DNA of 64,000 nucleotides, from positions 1 through 64,000 of the forward strand of contig NZ_JADGEW010000015.1 in assembly GCF_016744155.1 (NCBI RefSeq), given 5' to 3'. The stretch comes from Amphritea sp. Its GTDB lineage: Bacteria > Pseudomonadota > Gammaproteobacteria > Pseudomonadales > Balneatricaceae. The notes under the pieces are model-generated. The model ran no database searches. It was not told the DNA's origin and worked only from the letters and a program-made list of their open reading frames with translations. Shown piece by piece: positions 29,822 to 64,000 of the stretch. The translations under genes were made by a program, and so were the position numbers. Position 1 is the stretch's first letter; every line of letters begins with the position of its first letter.

Positions 29822-29884
29822 TTTCCATAAATAATGCCCAATATAGAAGTAACCGTTAGTGATAATGTTAAATGGAATTTATGC

Positions 29885-32457: not shown

Positions 32458-33140
32458 TAAGCATTCGTAACCTTTATAAGCGTTATCATAATCATCACGG
32501 CAGTGACTGGGTTTTAAAAGATATCAGTATTGATATACCCACAGGGGTAAGTGTTGGCTTACTTGGGCGAAATGGCGCGGGAAAATCAACCTTGTTACGC
32601 ATTATCGGGGGAATGGATACGCCGGATAGGGGCGAAGTCATACGAGATTGCAGAGTTTCATGGCCAATCGGAATCAGTGGTGGTTTTCAAGGTTCGATGA
32701 CAGGGCGACAGAATGTAAAGTTTGTTGCGCGGGTTCATGGTTCTGGAAAAGATATTGAACGTATTATTCACTTTGTCGAAGAGTTTGCAGAGATTGGTAA
32801 GGCGTTCGATGAGCCGGTTAAAACCTATTCAAGTGGTATGCGAAGTCGATTATCTTTTGGTTTGTCGTTAGCATTTGATTTCGATGTTTTTTTGTCTGAT
32901 GAAGCTACCTCTGTAGGTGATCGTGCTTTCAAGGAAAAGGCAACTAAAGCGTTTAAGGAACGAATAGGCCAGGCTGGCTTGATTATTGTTTCCCATGGCG
33001 AGGCTATTTTAAAAGATCTTTGCCAAGCGGGAATTTGGCTTGATCAGGGAAAGGCTCATTGGTTTGATGATATAAATGAAGCGATCGCGGCATATCATGA
33101 AAGTACTGATAAGCCTAAGCATAATATGAAAATTAAGTAA
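32454..33140 (+). CDS. kpsT: Capsule ABC transporter ATPase KpsT
   Basis: KpsT powers polysaccharide export through KpsM. The 228 residues contain Walker A GRNGAGKST (38-46), a signature-like YSSGMRSRLSFGLSLA and a Walker B VFLSDEATSVGD, the variant found in capsule and O-antigen exporters of this subclass. The ATG at 32454 overlaps the kpsM stop; a longer frame upstream lies inside kpsM and is rejected. Confidence 0.95.
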   Translation: MISIRNLYKRYHNHHGSDWVLKDISIDIPTGVSVGLLGRNGAGKSTLLRIIGGMDTPDRGEVIRDCRVSWPIGISGGFQGSMTGRQNVKFVARVHGSGKDIERIIHFVEEFAEIGKAFDEPVKTYSSGMRSRLSFGLSLAFDFDVFLSDEATSVGDRAFKEKATKAFKERIGQAGLIIVSHGEAILKDLCQAGIWLDQGKAHWFDDINEAIAAYHESTDKPKHNMKIK

Positions 33141-33154
33141 GATAGAAGATAGCA

Positions 33155-34243
33155 ATGAAATTATTTTTAAGGCAACACCCTTATTGGCTCCTGTATATAG
33201 TTTCAGTCGTTCTTGTTTCGGGTTATTGGGCTGTATGGGCAACAGATCGCTATGTTTCAGAAAGTAATATTGTTTTAGAAAGCCCTCAAATTTCAATGCC
33301 GGACCTAAACTTCTCTTCACTGTTAGGGGGGGGAAGCGGAGGGAATAACGACATGTTACTTCTGCGGGATTATCTGTTGTCTGTAGATATGCTGCGCAAG
33401 ATAGACCAGGAGCTTGGGTTTCGAAGTCACTACGCTAGTAATGACGTTGATTTCTTTTCCCGCCTGAGTTCAGTTAACGTTCCTCTTGAAGAACTGCATG
33501 AATATTATTTGAGCCGGATCTCTGTTGAACTTGATGAATATGCCCAGGTATTACGTATTAAAGTAGAAGCCTTCACTCCGGAAGTTGCGTTAGATATTTC
33601 GTCAATGTTACTGCGAGAAGGAGAGACTCATATGAATACCATGGGTCAGCGACTCGCTGCGGAGCAGGTTAGATTTCTTGAATTGCAGGTTTCTGAGTTA
33701 AGTGATAATTTTCAAAATACCAGAAAGGACCTTATTAATTACCAAAATTTAAATGGGTTGATTTCACCAACAGGCACCGTCGAAAGTTTAAGTGCGGTAG
33801 TAGCTGAACTTGAATCATCACTAGCGACCCTGCAAGCGAAGCAAACGATGATGGCGAGCTATCAGAGTAGCACCTCACCTGCAGTGATAAGAGTAGCGAG
33901 TGAAATTTCAGCCTTGCGTCAGCAGATTGCAAAGGAAAGGGCGCGTATGGCCCAGCAATCAGGTAATGCTCTGAATACATTGTCAGCCGAATATCAGACG
34001 CTTGAGCTAAAGGTGTTATTTGCACAAGAGAGTTACTCCGGAGCATTGGCGGCTTTGCAAAGTACGAGAATAGAATCTGCGCGAAAACTTAAGCAGATTT
34101 CTGTACTGCAAAGCCCAACGTTACCTGAGTATCCGGTGAAACCGAAACGACTGTATAACATTATAGTATTTGTAGTGATTGGTTTGTTTATAACCCTGAT
34201 CATGCATATGTTGGTATTGATTGTCAGAGATCATCGAGACTGA
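33155..34243 (+). CDS. kpsE: Capsule export inner-membrane protein KpsE/BexC-like
   Basis: KpsE-type polysaccharide co-polymerase-like proteins link the KpsMT transporter to the outer-membrane conduit. The 362-residue protein has an N-terminal membrane helix (about 10-28), a large periplasmic part with a coiled coil (about 160-300) and a C-terminal helix (about 330-355) ending in VRDHRD. The late segment YPVKPKRLYNI before the second helix is typical of the family. The order D-M-T-E resembles the compact bex/ctr export modules. Confidence 0.9.
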   Translation: MKLFLRQHPYWLLYIVSVVLVSGYWAVWATDRYVSESNIVLESPQISMPDLNFSSLLGGGSGGNNDMLLLRDYLLSVDMLRKIDQELGFRSHYASNDVDFFSRLSSVNVPLEELHEYYLSRISVELDEYAQVLRIKVEAFTPEVALDISSMLLREGETHMNTMGQRLAAEQVRFLELQVSELSDNFQNTRKDLINYQNLNGLISPTGTVESLSAVVAELESSLATLQAKQTMMASYQSSTSPAVIRVASEISALRQQIAKERARMAQQSGNALNTLSAEYQTLELKVLFAQESYSGALAALQSTRIESARKLKQISVLQSPTLPEYPVKPKRLYNIIVFVVIGLFITLIMHMLVLIVRDHRD

Positions 34244-34477
34244 TTTCAGTGCTAGTAGCTTTCTGGGCGTTATGTCAAAGGCCTTGGAAGAGCACACTAC
34301 GAATCAACAGGGTGAGAAGAAATTCTATCAGTCGTGAGCGTGAAGCGGTTTAGTTAAATAAAAAGTTAATAATGATGTAATTGTAGCTAATTGATTGGTT
34401 AAAAATAACAGATGTAGCGGACAAATTTTACGCCCGCGATGATTCGGTTAAGACTAATAAGCCTAGTAGGAATCCGC

Positions 34478-36088: not shown

Positions 36089-36089
36089 T

Positions 36090-48560: not shown

Positions 48561-49472
48561 ATGGCACAGCAGTTTTGGATAGTTCAGGCAGGTGAAAACC
48601 CTTCTACTGATTTTTTTATCAAGCCTGAATTAAATAATGCTGAAGCATGTCATTTTCACTGCTTTGAGCGACCGCCTTCAACCCCGCCGGAGGCTGGCGT
48701 TTCATTAATCTTTGTTCGGTACCTGAGTCGAGCATGGGTGCGCTGGGTTGAACGTCACCGGCACCTTATTAATGAGCTGATTTACTTTATGGATGATGAT
48801 CTGTTTGATACCACGACTCATCGTGGTTTATCAATGATCTATCGCTGGAAGCTTTATTATAATGCACGCCGCTATAAGTCATGGTTACAATCTCAGAATG
48901 CCTGCTTGTGGTTATCGACCTCCTGGCTTGTGGATAAGTATCAAGACTGGCAGCCAACATTACTCAGTGCTAAGTCTCCCTATATCGCTTTAGATGAAGT
49001 GAAAACAGTATTTTATCATGGGTCTTCATCGCATATTGAGGAGATGCGTTGGTTATTACCGGTGATCCGAACAGTACTCGAAACGGATAGTTCTCTGGTT
49101 TTTGAAATTATTGGTGATCATAAAATAAGGCGCATGTTTTCTGCTTTGCCCAGAGTCAATGTTTTGCACCCCATGAGTTGGGAGTCATACAAAGCTTTGA
49201 TTAGTCGACCCGGGCGGACAATAGGGTTAGCTCCATTACTAGATAGTAGATTCAATCAGGCTCGATCTTTCACCAAGCTGTACGATATTACTCTGGCCGG
49301 TGCTGTCGGTATTTATGCAGATCATCCTGTTTACCAGCCAGTGATTAACCATCAAAAAAATGGTTTACTCGTTCCAATGCATGAACAATCTTGGGTCGAT
49401 GCGATACTTGAATTGAGTAGGCAGAGTGACACCCGGGAAGCGCTTTTGAAAGAAGCAAGGAAGAGTCTGTGA
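48561..49472 (+). CDS. GT4-like glycosyltransferase linked to KpsC
   Basis: The 303-residue product resembles a single-lobe or compact GT4/GT1-type transferase. ELIYFMDDDLFD, FYHGSSSHIEEMRWLLPVI, VFEIIGDH, and IGLAPLLDSRFNQARSFTKLYDITLAGAVGIYAD are the recognisable family segments. Its stop overlaps the GTG of kpsC, so it is coupled to the linker enzyme. It could add the first sugar on the poly-Kdo linker; that is inference from position. Confidence 0.75.
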   Translation: MAQQFWIVQAGENPSTDFFIKPELNNAEACHFHCFERPPSTPPEAGVSLIFVRYLSRAWVRWVERHRHLINELIYFMDDDLFDTTTHRGLSMIYRWKLYYNARRYKSWLQSQNACLWLSTSWLVDKYQDWQPTLLSAKSPYIALDEVKTVFYHGSSSHIEEMRWLLPVIRTVLETDSSLVFEIIGDHKIRRMFSALPRVNVLHPMSWESYKALISRPGRTIGLAPLLDSRFNQARSFTKLYDITLAGAVGIYADHPVYQPVINHQKNGLLVPMHEQSWVDAILELSRQSDTREALLKEARKSL

Positions 49473-51463
49473 TTGGTTTTTTCTCTCTGGGTATAGGTCG
49501 TTTACGGCATCTGAATCAATTGCTAGAGCAATGCAGCAAGCAACTTTGGCTGGGAAGAAACAGTAAGGGACTTACAGCAATTGCCGGCTGGGGTTTGAAA
49601 CCTACTACGGCTAAGGCCCGGCGCTTTGCTGCAAAATTTGAGCTGCCTTATATATCACTGGAAGATGGTTTTCTTCGCTCTTTAGGGTTAGGCGTTAACA
49701 ACTCACCTATTCATAGTTTAATCGTCGACAAGACGGGTATCTATTATGATGCGACACGTCCAAGTGATCTTGAATTACTTATCATGAAGGCGGATTTCTC
49801 TGAAGCAGATATTGTGAGAGCTGAAGAGGGTATAGAGTTGTTACGGCGTTATCGTTTGTCTAAATATAATCATGCGCCTGACCTTCCTCCAAGTGGTTTG
49901 TCGGCTGAAAAGCGAAAAGTCCTGGTTGTGGATCAGACCCGCGGCGATGCTTCTATTGAGTTTGGTTTGGCCGATGCTAATAGCTTTGCCGCGATGCTTG
50001 AGGCTGCTTGTGTTAATAATCCAGATGCTGAAATTCTTGTAAAGATACATCCGGATGTTATTGCCGGTAAGAAGAAAGGCCATCTACTGACGATGGCTAA
50101 AGCGCGTGGCTGTACCTTAATCAACGAAGATCTATCCCCTTGGGCTTTACTTGATGCGGTGGATAAAGTTTATGTTGTGACTAGCCAGATGGGCTTTGAA
50201 GGCTTGTTAGCGGGTAAAAAAGTTTACTGCTTTGGTGTGCCTTTTTATGCCGGTTGGGGGTTAACAACTGATCAGAAAACGGTGGCTCGCCGTAAGGTTG
50301 CCCGGTCGCTTGCCCAGCTGTTTGCTGCGGCATATTTGAGATACTGCCGTTACATCAATCCCTATACCGGTGTGCGGTGTGAATTCGAGCAAACAGTGGC
50401 TTTACTGGCAGATCAGAAACGGCAGCGAGACCAGTTTCAGGGAAAGTGGCTAGGCATCAATTTTGGCTATTGGAAGAAAGGATTTGTTGCTTCTTTTTTG
50501 GGGGGAAATGCACAGCTTAAGTTCTCTAAAACGTTTAAGAAACAGTTTAATGATTCCTCTAAGCAGGTTCTTATATGGTCTTCTGATGAAAAAGCGGTAG
50601 CGGAGCTCAATACAGAGGGTAGCAGACTGTCTGTAAGTTATATGGAGGACGGTTTTATCCGTTCAGTTGGCCTGGGGGCGGATGCGGTTGACCCTCTCTC
50701 CTTAGTGATCGATCGTCAGGGAATTTACTACGACGCGACTGGCCCTTCAGATTTAGAAGTGTTGTTACAAACCGGTAGCTTCTCTGAAGACCTGATACGG
50801 CGTGCGGAACAGTTACGCAAGCGGCTGGTATCCTTAAAAATGAGTAAGTATAACGTCGGTGCTAGCTGTTCATTGGCGCTACCTGAGGACCGCCGAATTA
50901 TTTTGGTACCGGGTCAGGTTGAAACGGACGCATCAATTCGCAGAGGTGCGTCTGATATTAAAACTAATTCAGAGCTGCTTTATGAGGTAAGACAGAAAAA
51001 CCCTGATGCCTTTATACTTTATAAGCCTCACCCTGATGTTTTAACTGGCGCAAGATTGGCTGAAACTAACAGCCAGAAGATGGCCCTGCACTACGACCTG
51101 TTGGTGACTGATATTGCTATGCCGACGTTGTTAGAGAGTGTGGATGAGGTGCATACGCTGACCTCATTAACGGGTTTTGAAGCGCTGTTACGTGGTATTA
51201 CTGTTTATGCTTATGGATTGCCGTTCTATGCGGGCTGGGGTCTGACAACAGATCGTCATCACTGTTCTCGCAGGTCACGTCGAGTGTCGTTGGACGAAAT
51301 GGTGGCAGCGACTCTGATATTGTATCCCGTATATGTTGATCCTGACTCGGGCGACCAGATCAACGTTGAGACTGCTGTTGATCTTATTGACCTGCAACGG
51401 AAGAAACCTATACGAACGACGCTCAATTCATGGGTATGGCAACGGGTTCGTAAACCTGAATGA
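49469..51463 (+). CDS. kpsC: Capsule beta-Kdo transferase KpsC (dual domain, GTG start)
   Basis: KpsC extends the poly-beta-Kdo linker that joins group 2 capsules to their lipid, alternating 2,4 and 2,7 linkages. The 664-residue protein has two related transferase halves, about 1-330 and 335-664. Each has an EDGF(L/I)RS(L/V)GLG motif (near residues 64 and 393), a GIYYDAT-PSDLE block, an HPD motif and an FYAGWGLTTD motif. Duplication is visible directly. The GTG at 49469 has GGAAGAG upstream. It marks this as an ABC-dependent, Kdo-linked capsule system. Confidence 0.94.
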   Translation: MIGFFSLGIGRLRHLNQLLEQCSKQLWLGRNSKGLTAIAGWGLKPTTAKARRFAAKFELPYISLEDGFLRSLGLGVNNSPIHSLIVDKTGIYYDATRPSDLELLIMKADFSEADIVRAEEGIELLRRYRLSKYNHAPDLPPSGLSAEKRKVLVVDQTRGDASIEFGLADANSFAAMLEAACVNNPDAEILVKIHPDVIAGKKKGHLLTMAKARGCTLINEDLSPWALLDAVDKVYVVTSQMGFEGLLAGKKVYCFGVPFYAGWGLTTDQKTVARRKVARSLAQLFAAAYLRYCRYINPYTGVRCEFEQTVALLADQKRQRDQFQGKWLGINFGYWKKGFVASFLGGNAQLKFSKTFKKQFNDSSKQVLIWSSDEKAVAELNTEGSRLSVSYMEDGFIRSVGLGADAVDPLSLVIDRQGIYYDATGPSDLEVLLQTGSFSEDLIRRAEQLRKRLVSLKMSKYNVGASCSLALPEDRRIILVPGQVETDASIRRGASDIKTNSELLYEVRQKNPDAFILYKPHPDVLTGARLAETNSQKMALHYDLLVTDIAMPTLLESVDEVHTLTSLTGFEALLRGITVYAYGLPFYAGWGLTTDRHHCSRRSRRVSLDEMVAATLILYPVYVDPDSGDQINVETAVDLIDLQRKKPIRTTLNSWVWQRVRKPE

Positions 51464-51604: not shown

Positions 51605-52402
51605 GTGCTGTCACGCCTTGTTAATCACCGTCGCAGTTGCAGCGATACACCATCCGTCATATTAATTACCGGCGCTACTGGCGCGATAGGCAGTGCCTTG
51701 GCCAAGCTTTACGCGGCACCGGGCGTTACTTTGCATTTGCAGGGCCGGCAGGTAGAAGCGCTAAAGAATATCACACAAGAATGTCGCTCAATGGGAGCTG
51801 AAGTCCAGGCCCATAGCATTGATCTGTTGGATACTAAGTTGGTATCAGCCTGGTTGCAACAGATTGACGAAGAGCTTCCCATAGGTCTTTTTATTGCTAA
51901 TGCCGGGATGAACATAAATATAGGTCTTGATAGTGAAGGCGAGTCTGCAGAAGAGATGACTCAACTGTTGGATTTGAATATTAAGGCCACTTTGCTCATG
52001 AGCGGGTATTTAGCCAAGAAGATGCGGAAAAGAGGCCGGGGGCATATTGCATTAATTAGTTCGCTAGCTGGTTTCTATGGCTTGCCCATTATGCCCAGCT
52101 ATTGTGCAAGTAAAGCAGCAGTAAGAGCTTATGGTGAGGGCTTGCGAGGATGGCTTTCTGGATCGGGCGTAGGGGTTACGGTCGTTATGCCAGGGAATAT
52201 TGAATCAGCAATGTGCGATGCGATGCTAGGCCCTAAACCTTTTCTTATGAAGCCCGAGAAAGCTGCTGTGTTGATTAAAAGAGGGATTGAACGTAGCGCT
52301 GCCCGGGTTAGTTTTCCGTTCCCGCTAAATATGGGGAGTTGGTTTCTTATCGTTTTACCTGCTTCTGTATCTCAAAAAATCCTTAAGCTTTTGAAATATT
52401 GA
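51605..52402 (+). CDS. Short-chain dehydrogenase/reductase, RkpH-like (probable 3-ketoreductase of the lipid pathway)
   Basis: A classical 265-residue SDR with the NADP(H)-binding TGATGAIG (22-29), NAG, catalytic Ser153, Tyr166 and Lys170 (YCASK). A hydrophobic C-terminus (about 235-260) suggests membrane association, as in 3-ketodihydrosphingosine reductases. It starts at a GTG with AAAGGGA upstream. It follows kpsC and ends 18 bases from the convergent kpsS/synthase operon. By analogy with RkpH of Sinorhizobium and Fum13 of fumonisin synthesis I infer it reduces the ketone made by the neighbouring oxoamine synthase. Substrate is not shown by sequence. Confidence 0.85.
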   Translation: MLSRLVNHRRSCSDTPSVILITGATGAIGSALAKLYAAPGVTLHLQGRQVEALKNITQECRSMGAEVQAHSIDLLDTKLVSAWLQQIDEELPIGLFIANAGMNINIGLDSEGESAEEMTQLLDLNIKATLLMSGYLAKKMRKRGRGHIALISSLAGFYGLPIMPSYCASKAAVRAYGEGLRGWLSGSGVGVTVVMPGNIESAMCDAMLGPKPFLMKPEKAAVLIKRGIERSAARVSFPFPLNMGSWFLIVLPASVSQKILKLLKY

Positions 52403-52420
52403 TCTCTTATCTCTTTTTGC

Positions 52421-53692
52421 TTAGGGAATAAGAAAACTCACTTTCTGTAATCTGGGAGGTGATGATGACATTGCGCCGGGTTGATTTACTTGATTGTTAA
52501 TTAGTTTGTCACACATCTCTACAATGGCAAGCTTTCGCCCTTTTTCAGAAATAAAACTGCCATGAACTTGTATTGTGGCGGCCAAAAATTTTACAAAGCT
52601 ATCTACCAACTCTGCGGATGGGAGGTCGGGACTTTGGAAGAACGTATCTAGAGCTTGTTGACTGGTAAGCCCCGGAATATCGTACATAGCCTCTCCAAGG
52701 GTAATCACGGGCTTTATCTTTTGGATGGCATGGACGCCGACCGTACTGTTGATGGTAATAACGCCTTCACAGTTGTCCATGATCTTATCGAGATTTCCGC
52801 CGTCGATGAACCATACTCTATCCTCTAATCTAAAGCGGACCGCCAGTTGGTGAATGATCTCAGGCCAGGGCTCAATGCCATTATCCATAGGGTGAATTTT
52901 AAACAGCAGATGTGTGTTTTTTTCTGCATTCTCATAGAGGGCTTCTATGGCAAGCGTGATGGCTTCGGTTTGATGATTAAAAGGCGAGTTCTCTCTTAGC
53001 TGATAATCATTTTGCATCTGTAATGGGAACAGGAAATATCTTTTATTTTTCAGCTTTTCGGCAACAGTAAGCGCTAACTTGGCGTTCTTTTTACTCTTCA
53101 GTAAACGGGGAATATAGTTCAAGTATTCATATAATGGATTGTATACCTTGTCCCCTTGATAGTGACGGAAGAAGATGAAATCAAAATAATTTCCCAGGTT
53201 GTATATGACTTCGTTCCAGGCTTCCTGCCAGAAGGGATGTTCCAGGCCTTTTTGTATTATCGGGGCAGGGTGTTTTCTACCTTCATGGAGTATGTGTTCA
53301 GGATCTGTAGGAAAGTGTGACAGACGAGACATCCCCCCATGTTCAAGAGTTATCCAATAAGGTCTAAGGTAACCGTTTTCATAGGTGATGGCATTGATGC
53401 CGAGCTCTTTGGCTGTTTCTATTGCAAGGCGGTGATACGGCAAACAGTCGGCGTAATAGACCAAATCGGTGACTTTATGTTGCTTAATGAAGTCGGCTAG
53501 AAAATTTTTCCAGTCGGAAAGTGTGCCTCTATAGTTACATGAGTTTTGTCCTTGCCAAAATAACCAGTCCCCCAGACAAAGGTGTATTTTTAAACACTTA
53601 ACGCCACGACTTTGCAGGCCTTTACTGAGTTCGGAGCTGAATCTGGATGGTGGCCCCTGCAGTAAAAGAAAAACTTTTTTGCTGCTATGCAA
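52421..53692 (-). CDS. kpsS: Capsule Kdo transferase KpsS (TTG start)
   Basis: KpsS adds the first beta-Kdo to the lipid acceptor (lyso-phosphatidylglycerol in E. coli), and KpsC then extends. The 423-residue protein shows VFLLLQGPPSRFSSELSKGL, TYENGYLRPYWITLEHGG, LFPLQMQNDYQLRENSPF, FKIHPMDNG and TINSTVGVHAI, all characteristic of the capsule-synthesis family. The start is a TTG at 53692, with AAGGA seven bases upstream and no Met before the conserved motif. It is the third gene of the synthase-oxoamine synthase operon, 23 bases after the latter, which ties the lipid pathway to capsule linker synthesis. Confidence 0.9.
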   Translation of the reverse strand: MHSSKKVFLLLQGPPSRFSSELSKGLQSRGVKCLKIHLCLGDWLFWQGQNSCNYRGTLSDWKNFLADFIKQHKVTDLVYYADCLPYHRLAIETAKELGINAITYENGYLRPYWITLEHGGMSRLSHFPTDPEHILHEGRKHPAPIIQKGLEHPFWQEAWNEVIYNLGNYFDFIFFRHYQGDKVYNPLYEYLNYIPRLLKSKKNAKLALTVAEKLKNKRYFLFPLQMQNDYQLRENSPFNHQTEAITLAIEALYENAEKNTHLLFKIHPMDNGIEPWPEIIHQLAVRFRLEDRVWFIDGGNLDKIMDNCEGVITINSTVGVHAIQKIKPVITLGEAMYDIPGLTSQQALDTFFQSPDLPSAELVDSFVKFLAATIQVHGSFISEKGRKLAIVEMCDKLINNQVNQPGAMSSSPPRLQKVSFLIP

Positions 53693-53715
53693 TTTACTAT
53701 CCTTATAGATTGATC

Positions 53716-55038
53716 TCAGAGCAGTTGCTTTAATGCTTCGATGGTCTGATCGACTTGCTTTTGGGTATGCTCGCAGGAGATAAAAAAGCGGAGTCGAGCA
53801 CTGTTTTCCGGTACGCCAGGATAAACAATTGATTGCACGTTAATGCCCTGCTGGAATAGGCTTTCTGCGACACGTGTTGTTTTAACTGAGCTGCCGATAA
53901 TGACAGGGATGATGGCGACCCCTTTGCTCACTCCGGTATTAAATCCAGCTAGCTGAGCTTGCTCAAGAAAATATGTTGAGATGTTATGCAGTTGAGTGAT
54001 TCTTTCCGGCTCACTTTCCATTATTTTCAGAGATGCTATTGCTGCCGCTGCGGTAGGCGCGGGAAGGCCTGCACTATACAAAAAGCCGGGTGACAGATAA
54101 CGCAGATTATCGATGAGAGCGGCTTCACCCGCGATAAATCCTCCACAGCCAGACAGACTTTTACTTAGAGTCCCCATCCAGATATCAACGTCGGTACCAG
54201 GCGTACCATATACTTCTTTTAACCCTTTACCTGTTTGTCCAAGTACGCCAAATGAATGAGCTTCGTCGACCATAAGAAAGCAGTGGAATTTCTTTTTTAA
54301 TTCGATCAGGCGAGGTAGATCGGGATAGTCACCGTCCATACCATATAGCCCTTCAACGATGACCACTACCCTTTCGAATTGGTGTCGGTGTTGCGCTAAC
54401 AGTTGTTCGAGTGTGGTCATATCATTGTGGCTAAACGATAACCTTTTAGCCCCTGATAACTGCGCGCCGACTATGGAGCTATTGTGAGCGTATTCATCAT
54501 GTATGATGAGATCCTTGTCGTTAAACAGGTAGCCAATCGTGGAAACATTCGTTGCGTGCCCACTGACATAAACAAGGGCATCGTCAACGCCGTAGGTTTT
54601 AGCAATGGCGCTCTCCAGCTCGCCGTGGATTGGCCGCTCCCCTGCCATGATACGGCTGGCTGAGACCGAAGTTCCATAACGTTGTGTAGCCTCAATAGCG
54701 GCGTTATTAACTTCTTTATGTCCCGATAACCCCAGGTAGTTATAACTGGCGAAATTTATCATTTCCCGGCCACTTATCTTTGTAGTGGCACCGGCTAGCT
54801 CGTCATGAACTCTAAAATAAGGGCTTTCTAACTTCAGCATAGATGCGCCCTGTTCCATGATCTGTACCTGTTTGTAACCAGGATGTTGATCAAAGCGGTA
54901 AAACTTCTCAGGGATATTTGATGAAGTCAGGGCTTTCAGCGGTTTACCGGCTTCCTTGTCTACTTTTTCATATTTGCGTCGTAAAGACTGTTGAATCAGT
55001 TTTTGTTTAAGATCCGTGGTCAGCTTTTTGGTACTCAT
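53716..55038 (-). CDS. Alpha-oxoamine synthase (AONS/SPT-like), RkpG-like
   Basis: A PLP-dependent fold-type I enzyme of the KBL/BioF/serine palmitoyltransferase group, 440 residues. Such enzymes condense an acyl thioester with an amino acid and release CO2. Visible are INFASYNYLGLSGHKEV, the RYGTSVSASR segment, HDEYAHNSSIVGA, VDEAHSFGVLG and the PLP Lys293 in GTLSKSLSGCGG. An N-terminal extension of about 90 residues precedes the catalytic core, longer than in BioF. The ATG overlaps the synthase stop by one base (TAATG), so the two are coupled and probably work on the same ACP-bound chain. The amino acid used cannot be told. Confidence 0.9.
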   Translation of the reverse strand: MSTKKLTTDLKQKLIQQSLRRKYEKVDKEAGKPLKALTSSNIPEKFYRFDQHPGYKQVQIMEQGASMLKLESPYFRVHDELAGATTKISGREMINFASYNYLGLSGHKEVNNAAIEATQRYGTSVSASRIMAGERPIHGELESAIAKTYGVDDALVYVSGHATNVSTIGYLFNDKDLIIHDEYAHNSSIVGAQLSGAKRLSFSHNDMTTLEQLLAQHRHQFERVVVIVEGLYGMDGDYPDLPRLIELKKKFHCFLMVDEAHSFGVLGQTGKGLKEVYGTPGTDVDIWMGTLSKSLSGCGGFIAGEAALIDNLRYLSPGFLYSAGLPAPTAAAAIASLKIMESEPERITQLHNISTYFLEQAQLAGFNTGVSKGVAIIPVIIGSSVKTTRVAESLFQQGINVQSIVYPGVPENSARLRFFISCEHTQKQVDQTIEALKQLL

Positions 55039-58000
55039 TAGTTATCAATCCTTTGATGACTGCTTTTCAATTTAACGTTGTTAAGAATATCCTCTGACTG
55101 AACTGAATTGGTCTCTATTCCATGCTGACTTGCCAGATGTCGTATCGATTTATCGTCATGAGTAACTTCTATTTCCTTCTCATCTTGTTTGACCAAACTG
55201 ATAATTTTGGTGGTAAGTTGAGACAGCATAGGTGTTTCAGTTAAGGCCATGACCGGTACTTGAATCCCCATGCGAGCTTCAAGAGCGGTCATCAATTCCA
55301 CTCCCATGAGCGAGTCCATTCCCATATCGTAGATTGATTTATTAGGATCAATTTTGACGGCAGGAATCATGAGTATTTCACTTAATTCGATAGTAAGAAT
55401 TTCTAGAATAGCGTCGTTGAACTCAGGTTCTGACATTTCTAACATCATGGCTTTTAGATCAAGAGCATCTTCTTCGTTTTTTTCGCTTTCCCCCACAACA
55501 AGATTGATCTCACGGAATTTGTTATGAGATGAGGTTGGCAGGAAACGGCTAAGGGTGTGCCAGTCTAGCTCCATTACACCTAAGGAGGGGCTGTCATTTA
55601 CAATCATCTGCTCAAGTATGCTTAGCCCGGCTACTGAATTCAGAGCGCTACCGCCCAGGCGATTTTGTAAGGCATCTTTAATCTCTTCATTCCGAGCCAA
55701 AAAGCCTACATCGTCTATTGCCCCCCAGCGGACACAGGTTGCTGGTAGGTCTAACTTCTTTCGTGTCGAACTTAATGCTTCCAGCCAATGGTTCGCAGCC
55801 ACATAGGCGGCTTGTCCCGGGTTGCCCAATAGTGTTGTTACTGAAGAGAAGAGCACAAAGATATCCAGATCTAACGGACGGGTTAGCTCATCAAGATGCT
55901 GTGCTCCGCAAAGTTTGGCAGCAAGGCTTGCTTTAATCTGCTCCTGATCGAGGTTTCTGATTAAACTGTCATTGATGACCGTCGCTGCGTGAATTACGCC
56001 TTTAAGAGGGGGTAACTCATGATCACACAGCTTAATAATTTCGCTAAGTGCTTCCCGGTTGGAGACGTCACAGGCTTCCGCTCTGACAGAAATTTTCTTA
56101 ATCTCACACTGTTGCAAGAAATCTTGAGCCTCTTCGGATTGAGCACCACGGCGACTCACTAAGAGAAGGTGCTTGGCACCTTTTTCTACAAGCCATTGAG
56201 CTGTTTTTAATCCAAATCCGCCTAAGCCTCCGGTAATAAGATAGGTGCCATCAGGTGAGAGTTGTAAGTTGTTTTCCTGTGTCTTGTCTGCAGAAAGCTG
56301 ATCTGCATTGATTCCCTTATCATAGGTGACAATCACTTTACCTATCTGCTTGGCCTGTTGCATATAGCGAAAAGCATTTACGACCTGATCAGAGTTAAAC
56401 TCAGTGTAAGGTAATGGGAAAAGGGTTCCTGAGCGAAACAGTTCCATCAATTCGCTAAATAGTTTAGCTGCTAGTTCAGGAAGTTCCTGTTGCAACTGGT
56501 CAGCATCAATACCGAAATAGCTAATGTTATTTCGGAAAGGGCGCAGGCCGATGTGAGTATTTTCATAGAAATCGCGTTTACCGAGCTCAAGGAACCTGCC
56601 GAATGGCTTCAGGACTCTGAGATTTTGGTTAATAGCTTCGCCTGATAAAGAGTTAAGGACGACATCAACACCTTTGCCATCAGTAGAGTCTCGTAGTATT
56701 TCTTCCCCGAATGTCAGAGCGCGTGAGTTATAGATCTGTTCGGGATTGACGCCCAGTAATTCAATAAACGCTCGTTTTTCATCGGAGCCAACAGTTGCAT
56801 AAATATCCGCCCCTAGCCATTGAGCTATCTGTATAGCTGCAATCCCGACTCCTCCCGCTGCTCCATGAATAAGGACTTTCTCACCAGGTTGAATTCTTGC
56901 AAGGTGATGCAGGGCGTAATATACGGTTAAAAAGGTGGTGGGAATGGTTGCTGCACCCTCAAAACTAAGTCCTTCGGGCATAGGCGCAATGGCGGTTTCT
57001 GCCGCTATTAAGCGGTTACTAAAGCATGAAGAACCAAAACCTACTACCGAATCTCCTATAGAGAACTCGGTTACCTCCTTTCCTGTTTTGATTATGCGCC
57101 CGGAAAACTCCAGTCCAAGCGATGCGCCGGCAAAGCCATTTTCGATAGCCTCATCGGAAAGCATGCCTAAAGCGTACATGATATCGCGGAAATTCAGGCC
57201 GGTAGCGACTACTTCAATCTCTACTTCCTTGTCAGTTATCGCCTTTGATGGGCTTGCTTGCCACTCCAAATTTCGCAACTGTCCTGGGAATTCAAAGCCT
57301 AGAGAAATTGTTTCATCGTCTGTTGGAAGCTTGATTGCTCCCGGTTCATTCTCAAATCTCAACCTTGGCGCGAAGCAAGCGCCTTGTGGCGTGATGAATA
57401 ATTCATGCTCGTCCGATTCAGACGTCAGCGCATCAGTCAGCGCTTTGATTGCACTGTTGTCGAACCCAAGAGGAAGATCAACCAGATGAGTGTCATGAGT
57501 GATTGATTCGTTCATCAGCGTTCGACCAAACCCCCACAGAGCGGCATCAGCTGGCGATAATTGAGACACTTCCCAAGGTACTACCTGGTCGCTGGGAATT
57601 GTTGCACCGACCCCTTCAGTCAATAGCCATAAGGTAGCATCAGATCCAGACTGCTCGATTGCCATTGATGTATTAGTTGCACTGAGGCAGCGTGCGGTTT
57701 GATTGTGTAGTGGGTCAGCATTCAAACCGAAAAGATTCAAATCAATGATATCGGTTACAGCGGTGCCATTATCTTTCAGTGTTCTGAGCTGCTGTTCAAG
57801 TGTGGGGCGATCTGTTGGCGGAATAACCGTTATCGAAAAACCGGTATTAACCAGTTGATCAATTAGCAGCAGTTCTTTGTCGCTGTTGCTGCTTGTTATG
57901 AGCCAATGTTTTTGATCGCTGCTTTCCTTTTCTAGATGTATGTCTTCAGGTTTGCAGGCGCTTATCAAGAAGAACCCGCTGTCCGGTAGCTCTTCAGAAA

Positions 58001-61000
58001 GCGTTGTCAGCTGAGTGAACTTATATTGTGCTAGTGTGGCTTTCCACTGTTCAGCTGAAACTTGTGATTGTTGCTCTTCTGACCACCAAGCGGGATTGTC
58101 TCCTAAACAAAAATCTAACCAGAAAATTGGTTTCATGCCGTATATGAGTATGCTGGCTCCTGCCGATAATAAAGGAGAGACTTGCTGCAGCAACTTGAGG
58201 TTATCTTGAATTCGATGGCTGTCGAGACTGATCAATACCAGTTGAAACTTCTGTTCTGAGATATTTGTTGACGTTGAATCTAAGTTGTCTAGCTCAATGC
58301 AGCTCGAAAATGGGTAGCGTTCATTTAGATGCTTGTAGTCCTCAATTGCTGCAATGTTGTTGCTGGCAAAACTATAATCACAGATTCCAAAATCAATCTG
58401 ATTACAAATGCTATGGCCAAAGTGTACCTGGCTTGAGGCGACTTCGAGAATGCGTAAGCGGCCTCCTGTTGGTAATGAAGATTGCTGCAGATTCAGTAAT
58501 TTATTCAAACCCTCGGTTATATACGAGTAGCTTGTTTGGTTTGATAAATCATGGAACAGGCGAGAATATATTTCTTCTGGTTCAAGGGCTTTATTTTTAG
58601 CTTGCCCCAGCATCTTATCTGCCAGAGTCAGGCTGCAACGGCCAGCCAGGTTTGTCAGGCTAAAGTGATCCGGATATTCTCTTACTAATGTATTCCAGAT
58701 GAGAGAACTGTCGATTTCGGAGTCCTGCCATTCTGTATCGATTTGATAGATCGAGTCTTTCAGGGCGATGATCTGTAAATCAGAAGCATGCTTTATTACT
58801 TGTTGGCAGAGCGACGCCAGATCTGGATTTTTTAGTTGTAATACTTCGAGATCCTTAACATCTAAAGTGCCTAACTCGCCCTGAATCTGTTGCAGGGTTT
58901 CATGCAATGTATGGAAAACTAGGTTTTCCAATAACGGTTCAACTTCGTTGCTGAATCGATTAGCTGCTTCTGTTTGTTGCAGGCCCGCAGTTATTATTTG
59001 TTGTTGTAGCTGAGAATTTAGAGAAGTATCAGCAAGAGCAGTCGAGTTGACCGGCGTTAGATGATAGTTCAGAAAAGCTAGCTTATGATGTTCAGATTTA
59101 TGTAAACGAACAGACTTGAAACGGATGTCTTCCATTACCGCTATGCACACACCCTGATCGTCAAAAAGTTCCATTCGTGTCAGAAGGGAGTGGGGTGATT
59201 TTCGTAATAACTGTAAACAGGCCAGTGTAGGCTGATTTGTGGTATTCCGTCTTATTGCTATTCGACCAAAGCGCACCGGAATGAATGCTGTGCCACTGTT
59301 TTCTTCAAGTTCATTTCTGAGGAAGTGCACAACGAGTTGAATCGCACTGTCAAAGATACCTGGATGAAGAATGAACTTATCTGTTTGCTGGTGTAAGCAT
59401 GCAGGGCAAGTTAGTTTGGCTAATACTTGGTTCTCATTGTACCAGCCTAATTCTACTGCGCTGAATGCTGGGCCATATTGAAGGCCTGCGCTTTGAGTCA
59501 GTTTCAGGTGGGACTCGCCGTTAAAATCTGCTTCTCGCAATGGAATTATAGGGGCCGTTCGTTCCAGAGTTACGCCTGTACTCTGATGAGTGGCTCGGGC
59601 TTTACAGTTAGAGGACCACTCTTGTGACAGGGTGTGACTGCGGCTAGCAATGGATATATCGCCGGTTACGGGGTCTGTATCCGTTTGTATTACCTTACTT
59701 TGGTTTTGTTCAAGGATAAGAGGAGATAATATTTCAAGGCTTTCTACTTCAATCGTTTCATTTGGATGGAAATAAGCCGCTGCATTGAGGGCCAACTCAA
59801 CAAAGCCCGCTCCAGGGAAAACCACGCTATCGCCAACTTTATGGTCAGCCAGCCAAGGGAATAGGGCAGTATCTATTTGATTTTCCCAGAGTAGTGGTTG
59901 TAACGGTAATTTAGCCCCCAGTAGTGGGTGAACAGAGTCTCGTTGGAGAAGCTGATGTGATTCTATTGTGATAGGGAGCCAGTGTCGTTCACGCTGGAAT
60001 GCGTATAAGGGTAACTCAAGACGATTTCCGGGTTTGGGGAACCAATGTTGTAGATCAACCGCGCCAGCCATAATTGCGGCCGCGGCACATTTTTGTAGCT
60101 CTTCTATAGAATCCTGGTTACGCCTAAGGGTCGGTATGATCTGTGCGGTTACGTTGTGCTGACGTATCTGATCGTTCAGGTAGCTGCGCAGAACGGGGTG
60201 CGCCCCAACCTCAATAAAAAAGTTGTTTCCCTCTTTAAGCAACGTATTCAGAGCTTGGCAAAATAGCACTGGTTTGCGAATATTTTCCCACCAGTATTCG
60301 CTGGTTAATTCTTCGCCGGTAACCTGCTTTCCAGTGATTGTAGATATAAACGGAATAGTCGTAGAGGATGGGCTTAGGCCTTTGAGAGTGCGAATTAGCT
60401 CGGACTCGATTGGGTTCATAGCAAGGCTATGGAAGGCATAATCCAGAGGAAGGCGTAAATTGAAGACATTGTCTTGCTGTAATTTTGTTTCGAGTTGTTC
60501 GAGTTGCCCTGGATTACCTGCCAAAGTAACACCTTTGAAACTATTTATGCCTGCCAGTTCTACTTCGTTAAAACAGGGTTCTTGCAGAAGTAACTCTGCC
60601 TGATCTTGACTGAGACCTGCCGCAGTCATTGCGCCAGTGCCCTTGGTCGTACCTTGTAATAGGCTGCGGAAATAGATGACTTTGACTGCGTCTGCTAAGG
60701 TTAATGCACCAGAAGCCCAAGCGGCGGCAACTTCACCGACACTATGGCCCATAACCGCGACAGGTGTGATTCCCTGATGTTTGAGATAATCAGTAATACC
60801 CACTTGAATGGCAAACAGTGCCGGTTGGGCAATTTCTGTATATTCGAATCGGTTATCGCCATTGTGGCCCTTAATCTCTTTTAGGAGAGAGAAATCGGCA
60901 TGCTGGCTAAATAATCGGTCAACTTCTGTAACTGACTGGCGGAAGATCTCTGATGAGTCCAGTAGGGATTTGCCCATGGTTTCCCATTGACACCCGTTGC

Positions 61001-62606
61001 CGGAGAAAACAAAAATGGCTCCGGGGGATGACTCTAAGCCCTGTCCAGTAAATACTGATGATTCAGTTTGCTGTCCCGTTGTGTTTATAAAACCTTGTAG
61101 CTTCGAGTAAGCTTCATCACTGTTCTTTGCGTAAAGCAAAGCGGTGTCTGAATGGCGCTCTTTACTTGTATTGTAATTCCAGGCGAGATCATACACAGAG
61201 AGACCTTTCTCTGTTTTGATATACTGAGCCAAGCAAGTTGCATTCGCTTTCAGGGCCTCTTTACTTCGACCACTGATGACTATTGGAAGGCTCTGTTCGG
61301 GTGATAGTGATGGAAGCACCTTCAGAGGACTAGCTGGGCCACTTTGAAGGATTATATGGGCATTGGAACCGCCGAACCCAAAGGAATTAATGCCTATGTT
61401 GAGAGGGCCTTCTTGCTTTAATGGCAGTAATTTATCAACCACCTGGATATTCCAATCCTTAAATTTAATATCCGGGTTTGGCGTTTTCATGCTGATTGTA
61501 GCTGGTACAGCGCGGTGTTTAAGTATCAGTAGTGCCTTTACCAAACTGGCTACACCAGAAGCAGGCTCCAGGTGTCCTAGATTACTTTTAACTGAACCGA
61601 TAGGTAGTGGGAACTTTCGTTTTTTACCTAGAGCATTACCGATTGCCAGGGTTTCAATAGGGTCACCAACAGGTGTTCCTGTTCCATGAGCCTCAAGGTA
61701 ATCAATATCATCAGCGGTGATGCCTGCTTTTAGGCAAGTTTGTTCCATCAGCCGAGCCTGGCTATGGCATGACGGGATAGTAATACCTGATTTGTGGCCG
61801 TCGGTATTTACTGAAGATGCTGCCACCACTGCGTGGATGGTATCGCCGTCCTGAACAGCAAGATCATAGTCTTTAAGCAGAAATACACCGCCGCCCTCTG
61901 ATCGAACATAACCATTGGCCGATTTGTCGAATACCTTACAACGACCTTCTGGAGACAGCATTGTTGCTTTCGAAAAAATGATAAAGCCAAACGGGTGAAG
62001 GTGCAGGCTGATGCCACCAGTCAGAGCTGTGGTTACTTCACCGCTGAGGATTGACTGGCAAGCTTGATGGAAGGCTACCATAGAAGATGAGCAGGCTGTA
62101 TCCATAGAGATACTGGGGCCGGTTAAATCAAAGCTATAGGATATTCTGTTTGAAGCAATGCTGGTGGTGTTACCGGTTGCTGTAGATGCATTTATGCTGC
62201 AAAGATCATCAGACATCCGGTTGCCGTAATCGAGGCTAGAAATACCAAAAAAGACACCGCAATCAGACTGTTTCAAAGATGATGCTTTAATACCTGCGTG
62301 CTCTATAGCTTCCCAGGTCATTTCAAGTAAATAACGTTGCTGTGGATCGATTACAGCAGCTTCTCGTGGAGAAATACCAAAAAAGTCAGCGTCAAAACCA
62401 GATATATCACCTAGAGATCCTGCCTTGAAGGTGTAGCTACTACCAGGATGGTTTTGATCAGGATGAAGGTGGTTATCAAATGACCAGCGAGATGACTCTA
62501 CTTCAGTGATTAGGTCTTTTTCGTCAACCAGATCTTGCCAGAACGAGTTTGTAGTGGTTTGTGGCAGGCGAAAAGAGAAACCTACGAGAGCAACGCGTCT
62601 ATCCAT
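55038..62606 (-). CDS. Type I polyketide/fatty acid synthase KS-AT-DH-(psiMT)-ER-KR-ACP, RkpA-like
   Basis: A 2522-residue, highly reducing, single-module synthase. KS is about 3-425 (Cys172 in DTACSSS, HGTGT, NLGHLE). AT is about 535-850 (Ser622 in GHSVGE; YAFHS, suggesting malonyl). DH is about 895-1165 (His922 in ADHKVGDSVVFPG, Asp1086 in HPGIFDSA). A degenerate methyltransferase lies at about 1280-1600: LEVASSQVHFG lacks the SAM glycine loop. ER is about 1760-2090 (HGAAGGVGIAAIQIA), KR about 2115-2300 (GGLGGFG, Tyr2268) and ACP about 2395-2470 (Ser2432 in GMDSLMG). A 50-residue tail follows with no thioesterase. A complete reductive loop predicts a saturated chain, probably built iteratively. 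Release likely uses the coupled oxoamine synthase. Confidence 0.93.
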   Translation of the reverse strand: MDRRVALVGFSFRLPQTTTNSFWQDLVDEKDLITEVESSRWSFDNHLHPDQNHPGSSYTFKAGSLGDISGFDADFFGISPREAAVIDPQQRYLLEMTWEAIEHAGIKASSLKQSDCGVFFGISSLDYGNRMSDDLCSINASTATGNTTSIASNRISYSFDLTGPSISMDTACSSSMVAFHQACQSILSGEVTTALTGGISLHLHPFGFIIFSKATMLSPEGRCKVFDKSANGYVRSEGGGVFLLKDYDLAVQDGDTIHAVVAASSVNTDGHKSGITIPSCHSQARLMEQTCLKAGITADDIDYLEAHGTGTPVGDPIETLAIGNALGKKRKFPLPIGSVKSNLGHLEPASGVASLVKALLILKHRAVPATISMKTPNPDIKFKDWNIQVVDKLLPLKQEGPLNIGINSFGFGGSNAHIILQSGPASPLKVLPSLSPEQSLPIVISGRSKEALKANATCLAQYIKTEKGLSVYDLAWNYNTSKERHSDTALLYAKNSDEAYSKLQGFINTTGQQTESSVFTGQGLESSPGAIFVFSGNGCQWETMGKSLLDSSEIFRQSVTEVDRLFSQHADFSLLKEIKGHNGDNRFEYTEIAQPALFAIQVGITDYLKHQGITPVAVMGHSVGEVAAAWASGALTLADAVKVIYFRSLLQGTTKGTGAMTAAGLSQDQAELLLQEPCFNEVELAGINSFKGVTLAGNPGQLEQLETKLQQDNVFNLRLPLDYAFHSLAMNPIESELIRTLKGLSPSSTTIPFISTITGKQVTGEELTSEYWWENIRKPVLFCQALNTLLKEGNNFFIEVGAHPVLRSYLNDQIRQHNVTAQIIPTLRRNQDSIEELQKCAAAAIMAGAVDLQHWFPKPGNRLELPLYAFQRERHWLPITIESHQLLQRDSVHPLLGAKLPLQPLLWENQIDTALFPWLADHKVGDSVVFPGAGFVELALNAAAYFHPNETIEVESLEILSPLILEQNQSKVIQTDTDPVTGDISIASRSHTLSQEWSSNCKARATHQSTGVTLERTAPIIPLREADFNGESHLKLTQSAGLQYGPAFSAVELGWYNENQVLAKLTCPACLHQQTDKFILHPGIFDSAIQLVVHFLRNELEENSGTAFIPVRFGRIAIRRNTTNQPTLACLQLLRKSPHSLLTRMELFDDQGVCIAVMEDIRFKSVRLHKSEHHKLAFLNYHLTPVNSTALADTSLNSQLQQQIITAGLQQTEAANRFSNEVEPLLENLVFHTLHETLQQIQGELGTLDVKDLEVLQLKNPDLASLCQQVIKHASDLQIIALKDSIYQIDTEWQDSEIDSSLIWNTLVREYPDHFSLTNLAGRCSLTLADKMLGQAKNKALEPEEIYSRLFHDLSNQTSYSYITEGLNKLLNLQQSSLPTGGRLRILEVASSQVHFGHSICNQIDFGICDYSFASNNIAAIEDYKHLNERYPFSSCIELDNLDSTSTNISEQKFQLVLISLDSHRIQDNLKLLQQVSPLLSAGASILIYGMKPIFWLDFCLGDNPAWWSEEQQSQVSAEQWKATLAQYKFTQLTTLSEELPDSGFFLISACKPEDIHLEKESSDQKHWLITSSNSDKELLLIDQLVNTGFSITVIPPTDRPTLEQQLRTLKDNGTAVTDIIDLNLFGLNADPLHNQTARCLSATNTSMAIEQSGSDATLWLLTEGVGATIPSDQVVPWEVSQLSPADAALWGFGRTLMNESITHDTHLVDLPLGFDNSAIKALTDALTSESDEHELFITPQGACFAPRLRFENEPGAIKLPTDDETISLGFEFPGQLRNLEWQASPSKAITDKEVEIEVVATGLNFRDIMYALGMLSDEAIENGFAGASLGLEFSGRIIKTGKEVTEFSIGDSVVGFGSSCFSNRLIAAETAIAPMPEGLSFEGAATIPTTFLTVYYALHHLARIQPGEKVLIHGAAGGVGIAAIQIAQWLGADIYATVGSDEKRAFIELLGVNPEQIYNSRALTFGEEILRDSTDGKGVDVVLNSLSGEAINQNLRVLKPFGRFLELGKRDFYENTHIGLRPFRNNISYFGIDADQLQQELPELAAKLFSELMELFRSGTLFPLPYTEFNSDQVVNAFRYMQQAKQIGKVIVTYDKGINADQLSADKTQENNLQLSPDGTYLITGGLGGFGLKTAQWLVEKGAKHLLLVSRRGAQSEEAQDFLQQCEIKKISVRAEACDVSNREALSEIIKLCDHELPPLKGVIHAATVINDSLIRNLDQEQIKASLAAKLCGAQHLDELTRPLDLDIFVLFSSVTTLLGNPGQAAYVAANHWLEALSSTRKKLDLPATCVRWGAIDDVGFLARNEEIKDALQNRLGGSALNSVAGLSILEQMIVNDSPSLGVMELDWHTLSRFLPTSSHNKFREINLVVGESEKNEEDALDLKAMMLEMSEPEFNDAILEILTIELSEILMIPAVKIDPNKSIYDMGMDSLMGVELMTALEARMGIQVPVMALTETPMLSQLTTKIISLVKQDEKEIEVTHDDKSIRHLASQHGIETNSVQSEDILNNVKLKSSHQRIDN

Positions 62607-62795: not shown

Positions 62796-64000
62796 ATGGA
62801 CATAATTAAACCACTGTTTGTCCCTGTAGCGACGCCTCGGCCTAAGTATTTTGGGCTTTCGCCAATAAATATACTAGGTGTTCGACGGAATATGTTGTCC
62901 GTGTGGGCTGATAAGGCATATAAAGCCCGATCGTTATCCTTTAGTTTGCTAAATCAGAAGTATTTTCTATGTAATTCACCCGATACAGTTCGAAGAGTGT
63001 TTCTGGATCGTCACGATATTTACGATAAAAAAAGCCCGCAGATGCGACATGCCCTGGAGCCATTGTTAGGTGACGGTTTGTTCGTAAGTGATGGTGAACT
63101 TTGGCGAGAACGGCGCAAAGCCTGTTCTCCGCCCTTCGAAAGTTCCTTTTTACCGGGGTTTTCGGCGATTATGTCAGGATCTGCCGAGGCGATGGCAAAT
63201 GATTGGATGAGCTTGCCGGATGGTAGCTCAGTCGATGTTTTAAATGAGATGGCCCGGCTGACGGCTCAAATAATTGGGCGGACTGTATTTGGTGATGATG
63301 TCTCCGATGCGGATGCCGCTAAAGTCGTTAATGGTTTTAGTGTGTATCAAAAGACCATAAATCAGCTCGATTATGCGGATACTTTTGGCTTGCCTTTTTT
63401 ACGTGGTTTGTACAATCCTTTGCGGCGTAAGAAAGCGGCTAAGGCCACTGCAGAAGTTCATGAAGTAATTGATCAGATAATCGAACGTTATAAGCAGGGA
63501 GAGAAACCAGACCGATTGACGCTGTTATCGGTACTGTTGGATGGAGATAGTTCATCTTCTGGACGTGGCGGTTGCCCGTTGAATGCTGAAGCAGCGCGAA
63601 ACGAAGCGATTGTTATGTTTATGGCGGGACATGAGACAACGGCTAATGCGCTGGCCTGGGCTTGGTATTTGATTGATGGGTGTGAGCGGTCTAGAAATAA
63701 AATGTATGCTGAAATCGACGAGGTTTTGCAAGGCCGAACACCGACACTTGAAGATGTCGCTAATCTACCGTTTACACGGGCTGTATTCGAAGAGACACTG
63801 CGTTTATATCCTCCTGTGCCTTTGCTCAGCAGGCAAGCCAGAGAAGAGGATGAGATTAGAGGAACAAAGATTGAGCCCGGTACCATTATGTTAGCGCTTC
63901 CCTGGTTGCTACATCGTCATGAAAAAGAGTGGGATAACCCCGATGCATTTCATCCTGAGCGATTTTTGCCTGGAGTGCCGCGGCCAGATAAATTCTTGTA
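62796..64000 (+). CDS. Cytochrome P450 (partial, runs off the window)
   Basis: An open frame from the ATG at 62796 continues to the end of the window (401 codons seen). The product is a P450 monooxygenase: WRERRKACSPPF (C-helix region), the I-helix oxygen-activation motif AGHETT near residue 276, the ExxR motif in EETLRLYPP near 332, and FHPERF close to the window end. The haem-binding Cys is expected just beyond base 64000. No signal peptide or membrane anchor is evident. It is divergent from the synthase operon; a role in hydroxylating the lipid product is inferred from position. Confidence 0.92.
   Translation, partial: MDIIKPLFVPVATPRPKYFGLSPINILGVRRNMLSVWADKAYKARSLSFSLLNQKYFLCNSPDTVRRVFLDRHDIYDKKSPQMRHALEPLLGDGLFVSDGELWRERRKACSPPFESSFLPGFSAIMSGSAEAMANDWMSLPDGSSVDVLNEMARLTAQIIGRTVFGDDVSDADAAKVVNGFSVYQKTINQLDYADTFGLPFLRGLYNPLRRKKAAKATAEVHEVIDQIIERYKQGEKPDRLTLLSVLLDGDSSSSGRGGCPLNAEAARNEAIVMFMAGHETTANALAWAWYLIDGCERSRNKMYAEIDEVLQGRTPTLEDVANLPFTRAVFEETLRLYPPVPLLSRQAREEDEIRGTKIEPGTIMLALPWLLHRHEKEWDNPDAFHPERFLPGVPRPDKFL

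Follow-up and report, generated by a model that had tools for sequence, protein, structure and literature searches.

We analysed a window of 64,000 nucleotides from Amphritea sp. (bases 1-64000 of the 97.7-kb contig NZ_JADGEW010000015.1; genome 4.15 Mb), in which a capsule locus carries a type I polyketide synthase (PKS), an alpha-oxoamine synthase (AOS), a short-chain dehydrogenase/reductase (SDR) and a KpsS-type transferase of 3-deoxy-D-manno-octulosonic acid (Kdo). The pathway itself is of a known kind, the rkpA/G (wcbR/T) module. What is new here is that sequence comparisons suggest that the KpsS lineage tracks the PKS-AOS pathway, and we consider it somewhat probable that a sphingoid lipid replaces (lyso)phosphatidylglycerol as the acceptor of KpsS and as the capsule anchor. 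A passage of PMC11666461 gives phosphatidylglycerol plus Kdo as the anchor of Gram-negative ABC-transporter capsules, highly conserved across all species, and passages of PMC4881576 and PMC11766843 leave the lipid product of the rkp and wcb genes undefined. Neither a sphingoid anchor of a Kdo-type capsule nor a split of KpsS by PKS-AOS was found in searches of the open-licence PMC literature. The genes concerned are as follows.

55038..62606, minus strand: type I PKS of 2522 aa (Pfam and motifs), with ketosynthase (KS), acyltransferase (AT), dehydratase (DH), a part without Pfam match, enoylreductase (ER), ketoreductase (KR) and acyl carrier protein (ACP) in that order and no thioesterase; role of RkpA/WcbR/SgaA
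53716..55038, minus strand: AOS of 440 aa (NCBIfam, structure relatives, tree and motifs); role of RkpG/WcbT/SgaB
52421..53692, minus strand: KpsS-type beta-Kdo transferase, type A of the AOS-linked KpsS side (Capsule_synth at 1.3e-70, tree and fold)
51605..52402, plus strand: SDR of 265 aa, probable 3-keto-sphinganine reductase (Pfam/NCBIfam and motifs)
49469..51463, plus strand: KpsC-type protein (Capsule_synth by Pfam), for Kdo linker extension
62796..64000, plus strand: cytochrome P450 of 465 aa, probable chain hydroxylase, running past the window to contig base 64193
contig bases 64177-65115, outside the window and after the P450: LpxL-like acyltransferase (Lip_A_acyltrans)

KpsS is the transferase with which a capsule is begun on its lipid. 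The KpsS gene is part of the PKS-AOS gene string, its start lying 23 bases past the AOS stop, and its product has the Capsule_synth domain and the retaining beta-Kdo transferase fold of the KpsS family; its model matches the KpsC and WbbB Kdo transferases. A KpsS tree was built after exclusion of identical copies, open reading frames (ORFs) of <300 or >600 aa and rows with <280 aligned residues; second copies of included genomes (L150, L151, L156, L158, L163, L165 and L168; L and G numbers denote our loci and genomes) were kept out of the counts, and the AOS-positive row L065 had no PKS in reach. In this tree a single branch with a bootstrap of 99 separates 44 sequences from AOS-bearing loci or genomes from 22 without AOS, and the window KpsS lies on the opposite side from the E. 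coli rows. One change was still enough in a sample taken from genome searches (21 with AOS versus 35 without), and unlinked genes show the same agreement between KpsS and the AOS label. The KpsC tree, by comparison, needed three changes for the same label (47 rows, many partial). A search for residues diagnostic of either KpsS clan gave none at 85%/85%. Paired KpsS-type genes were seen in L033, L133, L135 and genome G552 (L215, L232); one of each pair is near the window type and the other belongs to a different type-A branch, which would fit a need for two transfers in succession.

An earlier reading of the window from its letters alone, here called the original prediction, had placed a PKS, AOS and SDR set in a capsule locus; the frames are intact and the positions it gave were right, although KpsS, the P450 and the Lip_A_acyltrans protein were absent from its list. 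The complete reducing synthase without thioesterase that it described is borne out by 15 Pfam matches, which cover KS, AT, DH, ER, KR and ACP and include no thioesterase. The KS carries TACSSS, HGTGT and NLGH, the AT carries GHSVGE and YAFH (the latter presumably marking a malonyl type), the ER GAAGGVG, the KR GGLGGFG and S-Y-N, and the ACP GMDSL. The Asp of DSAIQ is present in the DH; the pattern HxxxGxxxxP found no match there, and by eye the sequence DHKVGDSVVFP keeps the His and Pro, with Asp in place of Gly. Residues ~1170-1790 have no Pfam match and a single ILEV motif, and by eye this is perhaps a decayed methyltransferase. The AOS and PKS are coupled as proposed, the ATG of the AOS overlapping the PKS stop (TAATG). 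A one-module, fully reducing PKS without thioesterase that adjoins an AOS, within an ABC-transporter capsule locus with KpsS, is the arrangement of the RkpA/RkpG (WcbR/WcbT) module.

The catalytic motifs of the AOS are present (the GTLSK lysine and DEAH), and its nearest solved structures are serine palmitoyltransferases (SPTs; E 1.3e-65). All 11 NCBIfam models that it matched, among them BioF, KBL, ALAS, CqsA and three SPT models, placed it under their curated cut-offs. In a tree of 94 of 159 rows it falls in a clade of 49 rows (SH-aLRT, an approximate likelihood-ratio test of branch support, 97) that includes the Sinorhizobium meliloti AOS. Of these 49 rows, 47 are labelled capsule-linked (for a few rows with this label, e.g. 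L118 and L122, the neighbours in reach are all of wcb type), and the other two are copies from G324, which lacks full KpsS. The BioF, KBL and canonical SPT rows are grouped elsewhere, in clades of their own, so that the AOS grouped with neither BioF nor KBL, the two families named by the original prediction as the clustering that would speak against it. Assignment as canonical SPT was rejected on this ground and on scores of 311, 271 and 193 bits against cut-offs of 640, 500 and 670, as were BioF (344 against 426 bits) and KBL (302 against 460 and 254 against 493). A search of the window genome with the SPT model at E<=1e-60 returned only the window AOS and a BioF.

The chemistry can be read from a relative. 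In Pseudomonas fluorescens MYb115, according to the main text of Peters et al. 2025 (PMC12134224), production of C24-C28 sphinganines depends on PfSgaA/B, PfSgaB is an SPT that condenses L-serine with acyl thioesters, near-exclusively over alanine and glycine, a nearby SDR is proposed as the ketoreductase, and probable phosphoglycerol-sphinganines are also made. The decarboxylative condensation of the PKS chain with an amino acid that had been predicted for the window is thus supported through relatives, having been shown for the PfSgaAB pair; for Pseudomonas, the accompanying statement of an undefined product is superseded.

By analogy with that pair, the window PKS would assemble a long, saturated acyl chain on its ACP, and the AOS would free the chain through decarboxylative condensation with L-serine, giving 3-keto-sphinganine, the ketone of which the SDR would reduce. 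The P450 would then probably hydroxylate, and the LpxL-like enzyme acylate, the product. KpsS may put the first beta-Kdo on this sphingoid lipid and KpsC would lengthen the Kdo linker, the capsule being polymerised and then leaving the cell through the ABC system. Where relatives have an LtaS-type enzyme, the KpsS acceptor would perhaps be sphinganine-1-phosphoglycerol, a single-chain mimic of lyso-phosphatidylglycerol. A more specific version, which we regard as doubtful though possible, is that the window KpsS glycosylates the P450-hydroxylated, LpxL-like-acylated sphingoid or ceramide-like lipid itself; the capsule would then be a giant glycosphingolipid, and Gram-negative ABC-transporter capsules would fall into two anchor classes, phosphatidylglycerol and polyketide-sphingoid, told apart by KpsS lineage. 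If the KpsS split does mark a second, sphingoid anchor class, it would explain why rhizobia, pseudomonads, halomonads and relatives of Burkholderia have a PKS and an AOS in their capsule loci, assign a structural function to the recently discovered PKS sphingolipids and make the anchor type predictable from one gene. The tie between KpsS and the pathway turns the old special-lipid idea into a testable anchor model.

Several observations weigh against a sphingoid anchor recognised by its own KpsS lineage. Branch support in the genome-search sample is weaker (88/71), and an AOS-less KpsS row (G343) stands at the base of the AOS-linked side. The contrast between KpsS and KpsC is a matter of degree, because KpsC also clusters by AOS label (0 of 500 shuffles were as low). 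Hidden Markov models of the two KpsS sides were right for 12 of 24 held-out rows (9/9 with AOS, 3/15 without), 3 of the 27 held-out places having given no usable KpsS ORF (L208, L216, L219); as predictors of subclass these models were rejected, having failed on the AOS-less rows. Full KpsS was lacking from 6/17 AOS-positive genomes at the level of the phylum and 4/17 at that of the order. LtaS-type enzymes are expected outside the inner membrane, KpsS inside. Finally, to go by the title of a report by Fraysse et al., the poly-Kdo of S. meliloti 1021 is said to bear a phospholipid anchor; this could be a phosphoglycerol-sphingoid, or it could contradict the model.

The PKS-AOS product might instead be a free membrane or signalling sphingolipid made beside capsule genes, with KpsS keeping phosphatidylglycerol. 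The free sphinganines of MYb115 affect the host in an account whose main text is silent on capsules (PMC12134224), and related AOS genes occur both in genomes without full KpsS (G324 and others) and as PKS fusions without capsule genes (L052, L053). We nevertheless think this unlikely: the AOS label is followed by KpsS, unlinked genes included, and less by KpsC, the KpsS gene shares the PKS-AOS string, and rkp-1 products are described in part of PMC4881576 as taking part in producing a specific lipid carrier for the capsule. The identity of the amino acid offers another alternative, in which alanine, glycine, cysteate or another substrate would yield a deoxy- or sulfono-type amino lipid rather than sphinganine. 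The AOS lies under three SPT cut-offs and apart from canonical SPT in the tree; AOS enzymes of fumonisin type and cysteate-using ones exist, and the cysteate-using enzyme 28eh is among the structure matches of the window AOS. Against this stand the strong preference of PfSgaB for L-serine over alanine and glycine (PMC12134224, main text) and the position of Pseudomonas AOS in the same clade, in a tree that does not contain PfSgaB itself, and we hold a different substrate to be more improbable still than a free lipid.

Relatives often have, in addition, an enzyme resembling phosphoglycerol transferases. In alignment A2, KpsS of type B (28-30% identical to the window KpsS) occurs with an LtaS-type gene in 8/8 loci, and the type A loci of the window's genus (5/5) have no such gene within reach, a pattern limited by S. 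meliloti and Shinella, which have type A with an RkpI-type gene; within the genus the comparison is thin, with 2 and 5 loci (p 0.048). In the Pseudomonas locus, the LtaS-type protein has matches to the lipoteichoic acid primase and to GacH, a phosphoglycerol transferase; GacH is also matched, at 4e-9, by the S. meliloti protein in the RkpI position. A PF00884 search of the window genome gave no sulfatase-superfamily match, its control finding those of E. coli and others; a second search there for LtaS-type proteins, made with no positive control, was also empty. An LtaS-type step as a universal part of the pathway is ruled out for the window genome by the empty PF00884 search. The head group in the window organism may differ from that of LtaS-bearing relatives, because this genome is without a phosphoglycerol-transferase-like enzyme. 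To judge from these matches, an LtaS-type enzyme would explain the phosphoglycerol-sphinganines of MYb115 as single-chain analogues of lyso-phosphatidylglycerol. It is conceivable, if rather less than evenly so, that the LtaS-type enzyme puts glycerol phosphate on the polysaccharide only and that the sphingoid anchor never bears phosphoglycerol: a Cobetia capsule with 6-phosphoglycerol on mannose goes with a wcbPQRT operon, and WcbQ is cited in part of PMC11766843 as capable of adding glycerol phosphate to the chain. The probable phosphoglycerol-sphinganines of MYb115 (PMC12134224, main text) argue the other way, as does the 8/8 association with type B, which would be expected if the LtaS-type enzyme altered the KpsS acceptor.

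The SDR retains the predicted Ser-Tyr-Lys set. The likeness to RkpA, RkpG and RkpH that had been proposed stands for the AOS, by its clade, and for the SDR in role and place; clear orthology of the SDR does not follow from 25% identity to the SDR that S. meliloti has in the RkpH position. The P450 was present in 6/17 genomes of the genus, 5/7 of those with AOS plus G004, where a 98% PKS fragment lies beside the P450 at a contig end with no AOS match; it was found in 0/9 of the remaining genomes, which have no AOS at E<=1e-60 (the PKS was not searched there). The association of P450 and AOS has p 0.002 among the genus genomes, uncorrected for kinship, and the LpxL-like protein is present in 5 of the 6 P450-bearing genomes. 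Genomes G003 and G008, which have PKS-AOS without the P450, count against the tie. Outside the genus a P450 was seen near PKS-AOS in Halomonas urumqiensis, with an LpxL-like gene, and in two Cocleimonas loci; that the P450/LpxL-like pair are chance neighbours beside cinA-recA is a weakened proposition. In G014 (L141) the pair lies between cinA and mutS, with the capsule genes of that genome on a different contig, suggesting movement of the capsule locus into or out of the site next to the pair. Near PKS-AOS other lineages have a formyltransferase, GNAT and LpxC-like genes, or a dioxygenase of PhyH type; PhyH and P450 did not occur together in any fetched locus. All these genes, with the P450 and LpxL-like genes, may provide variable tailoring of a single sphingoid anchor. 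A formyltransferase-family gene (PF00551) follows the AOS in L041 (4412-5254) and L105 (11345-12190), possibly as an N-capping step for the lipid amine, and in L114 (962-1954, Thiotrichaceae) a protein with the phosphatidylglycerol lysyltransferase C-terminal domain PF09924 is encoded just upstream of the PKS.

When contigs of genomes were scanned for AOS, a PKS accompanied it in 77 of the best 80 loci. A KpsS, KpsC, KpsMTED or LtaS-type gene was in reach in at least 60 of these, and KpsS, KpsC or KpsMTED in at least 35; the counts are lower bounds because the PKS occupies most of one flank. Among the 57 loci of >19 kb the corresponding numbers were at least 50 and 28. No capsule-type gene was detected with the references used in 19 of the best 80, many of them on short contigs. 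The gammaproteobacterial version in a kps locus, which had been singled out as deserving study, is real and also common, with Halomonas and Pseudomonas among the best 80 loci. A tblastn search of a plasmid collection with the AOS gave 16 records. In five of the seven plasmid regions opened, those of S. meliloti, Pseudomonas, Paraburkholderia, Caballeronia and Shinella, a PKS and an SDR occur along with capsule genes. In the other two, from Planktothrix and Streptomyces, PKS and AOS are fused (L052, 7602-15200; L053, 10305-15128) and the part opened shows no capsule genes; the products are possibly free amino-lipids. The main text of PMC12134224 counts 6,101 homologous clusters, dominantly Burkholderia.

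The S. meliloti rkp-1 region (rkpA, G, H, I, J) shares with the window its capsule context, the SDR, a PKS and an AOS of the same clade (46-47% identical) and a type A KpsS (40% identical to that of the window). It differs in gene order and in having a sulfatase-superfamily protein at the RkpI position, of which there is none in the window genome, and no P450 or LpxL-like gene was seen in it (L049). In Burkholderia and its relatives the wcb operon (wcbR, wcbT, wcbP, wcbQ, wcbS) likewise has PKS, AOS and SDR in a capsule operon (also L051 and L055), but with LtaS-type, LpxC-like and GNAT genes and, in L051, KpsS of type B. The wcb and rkp clusters are termed orthologous, with the PKS in common, in part of PMC3908369, and a passage of the 2025 Cobetia paper (PMC11766843) refers to wcbPQRT as capsule lipid biosynthesis of little-known function. 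The PKS of MYb115 adjoins the AOS, with the SDR close by, as in the window; a capsule role is not discussed in the main text, which has no word beginning with capsul or rkp (PMC12134224). Because the spacing of its AOS and SDR locus tags (RS19800 to RS19775) equals that in L050, a Pseudomonas plasmid locus in which KpsS and KpsC come next, there are hints that sgaABC is itself a capsule locus. L050 differs from the window in having LtaS-type and PhyH genes instead of P450 and LpxL-like genes. E. coli group 2/3 capsule loci, with a (lyso)phosphatidylglycerol-Kdo anchor, share KpsMTED, KpsC and KpsS with the window; they differ in that their KpsS and that of the window fall on opposite sides of the tree and that the window has PKS, AOS and SDR. 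The fumonisin pathway (Fum1, Fum8, Fum13), a fungal toxin pathway with a different amino acid, also uses an AOS to release the PKS chain before ketone reduction. Fum13 is named as a KDSR homologue in the main text of PMC12134224.

The capsule locus spans the stretch between mutS and recA. On the plus strand are KpsD-, KpsM-, KpsT- and KpsE-type genes, glycosyltransferases, KpsC and the SDR, and on the minus strand KpsS, AOS and PKS, followed by the divergent P450 and LpxL-like acyltransferase; downstream of the latter cinA, recA, recX and alaS were read by eye. The ABC-transporter capsule set was confirmed as a polysaccharide-export/SLBB protein, an ABC-2 permease, an ABC ATPase, a GNVR protein, glycosyltransferases and the KpsC-type protein; the export set and KpsC are thus present as in canonical (lyso)phosphatidylglycerol-anchored group 2/3 capsules. 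The export genes are as follows.

29834..31603, plus strand: KpsD-type polysaccharide export protein
31669..32457, plus strand: KpsM-type ABC permease
32385..33140, plus strand: KpsT-type ABC ATPase
33155..34243, plus strand: KpsE-type protein, its GNVR match below the Pfam cut-off and its name given by position

Four ORFs of the locus have no Pfam match (34439-36088, 36018-37358, 41314-41961 and 48561-49472), and 37358-39079 encodes a BNR_4 repeat protein, unusual for a capsule gene set. Beyond housekeeping genes, L001 12432-19999 encodes two ABC transporters together with a membrane-fusion-type protein, and also a long repeat protein; read by eye, these are a giant adhesin and its type I secretion system.

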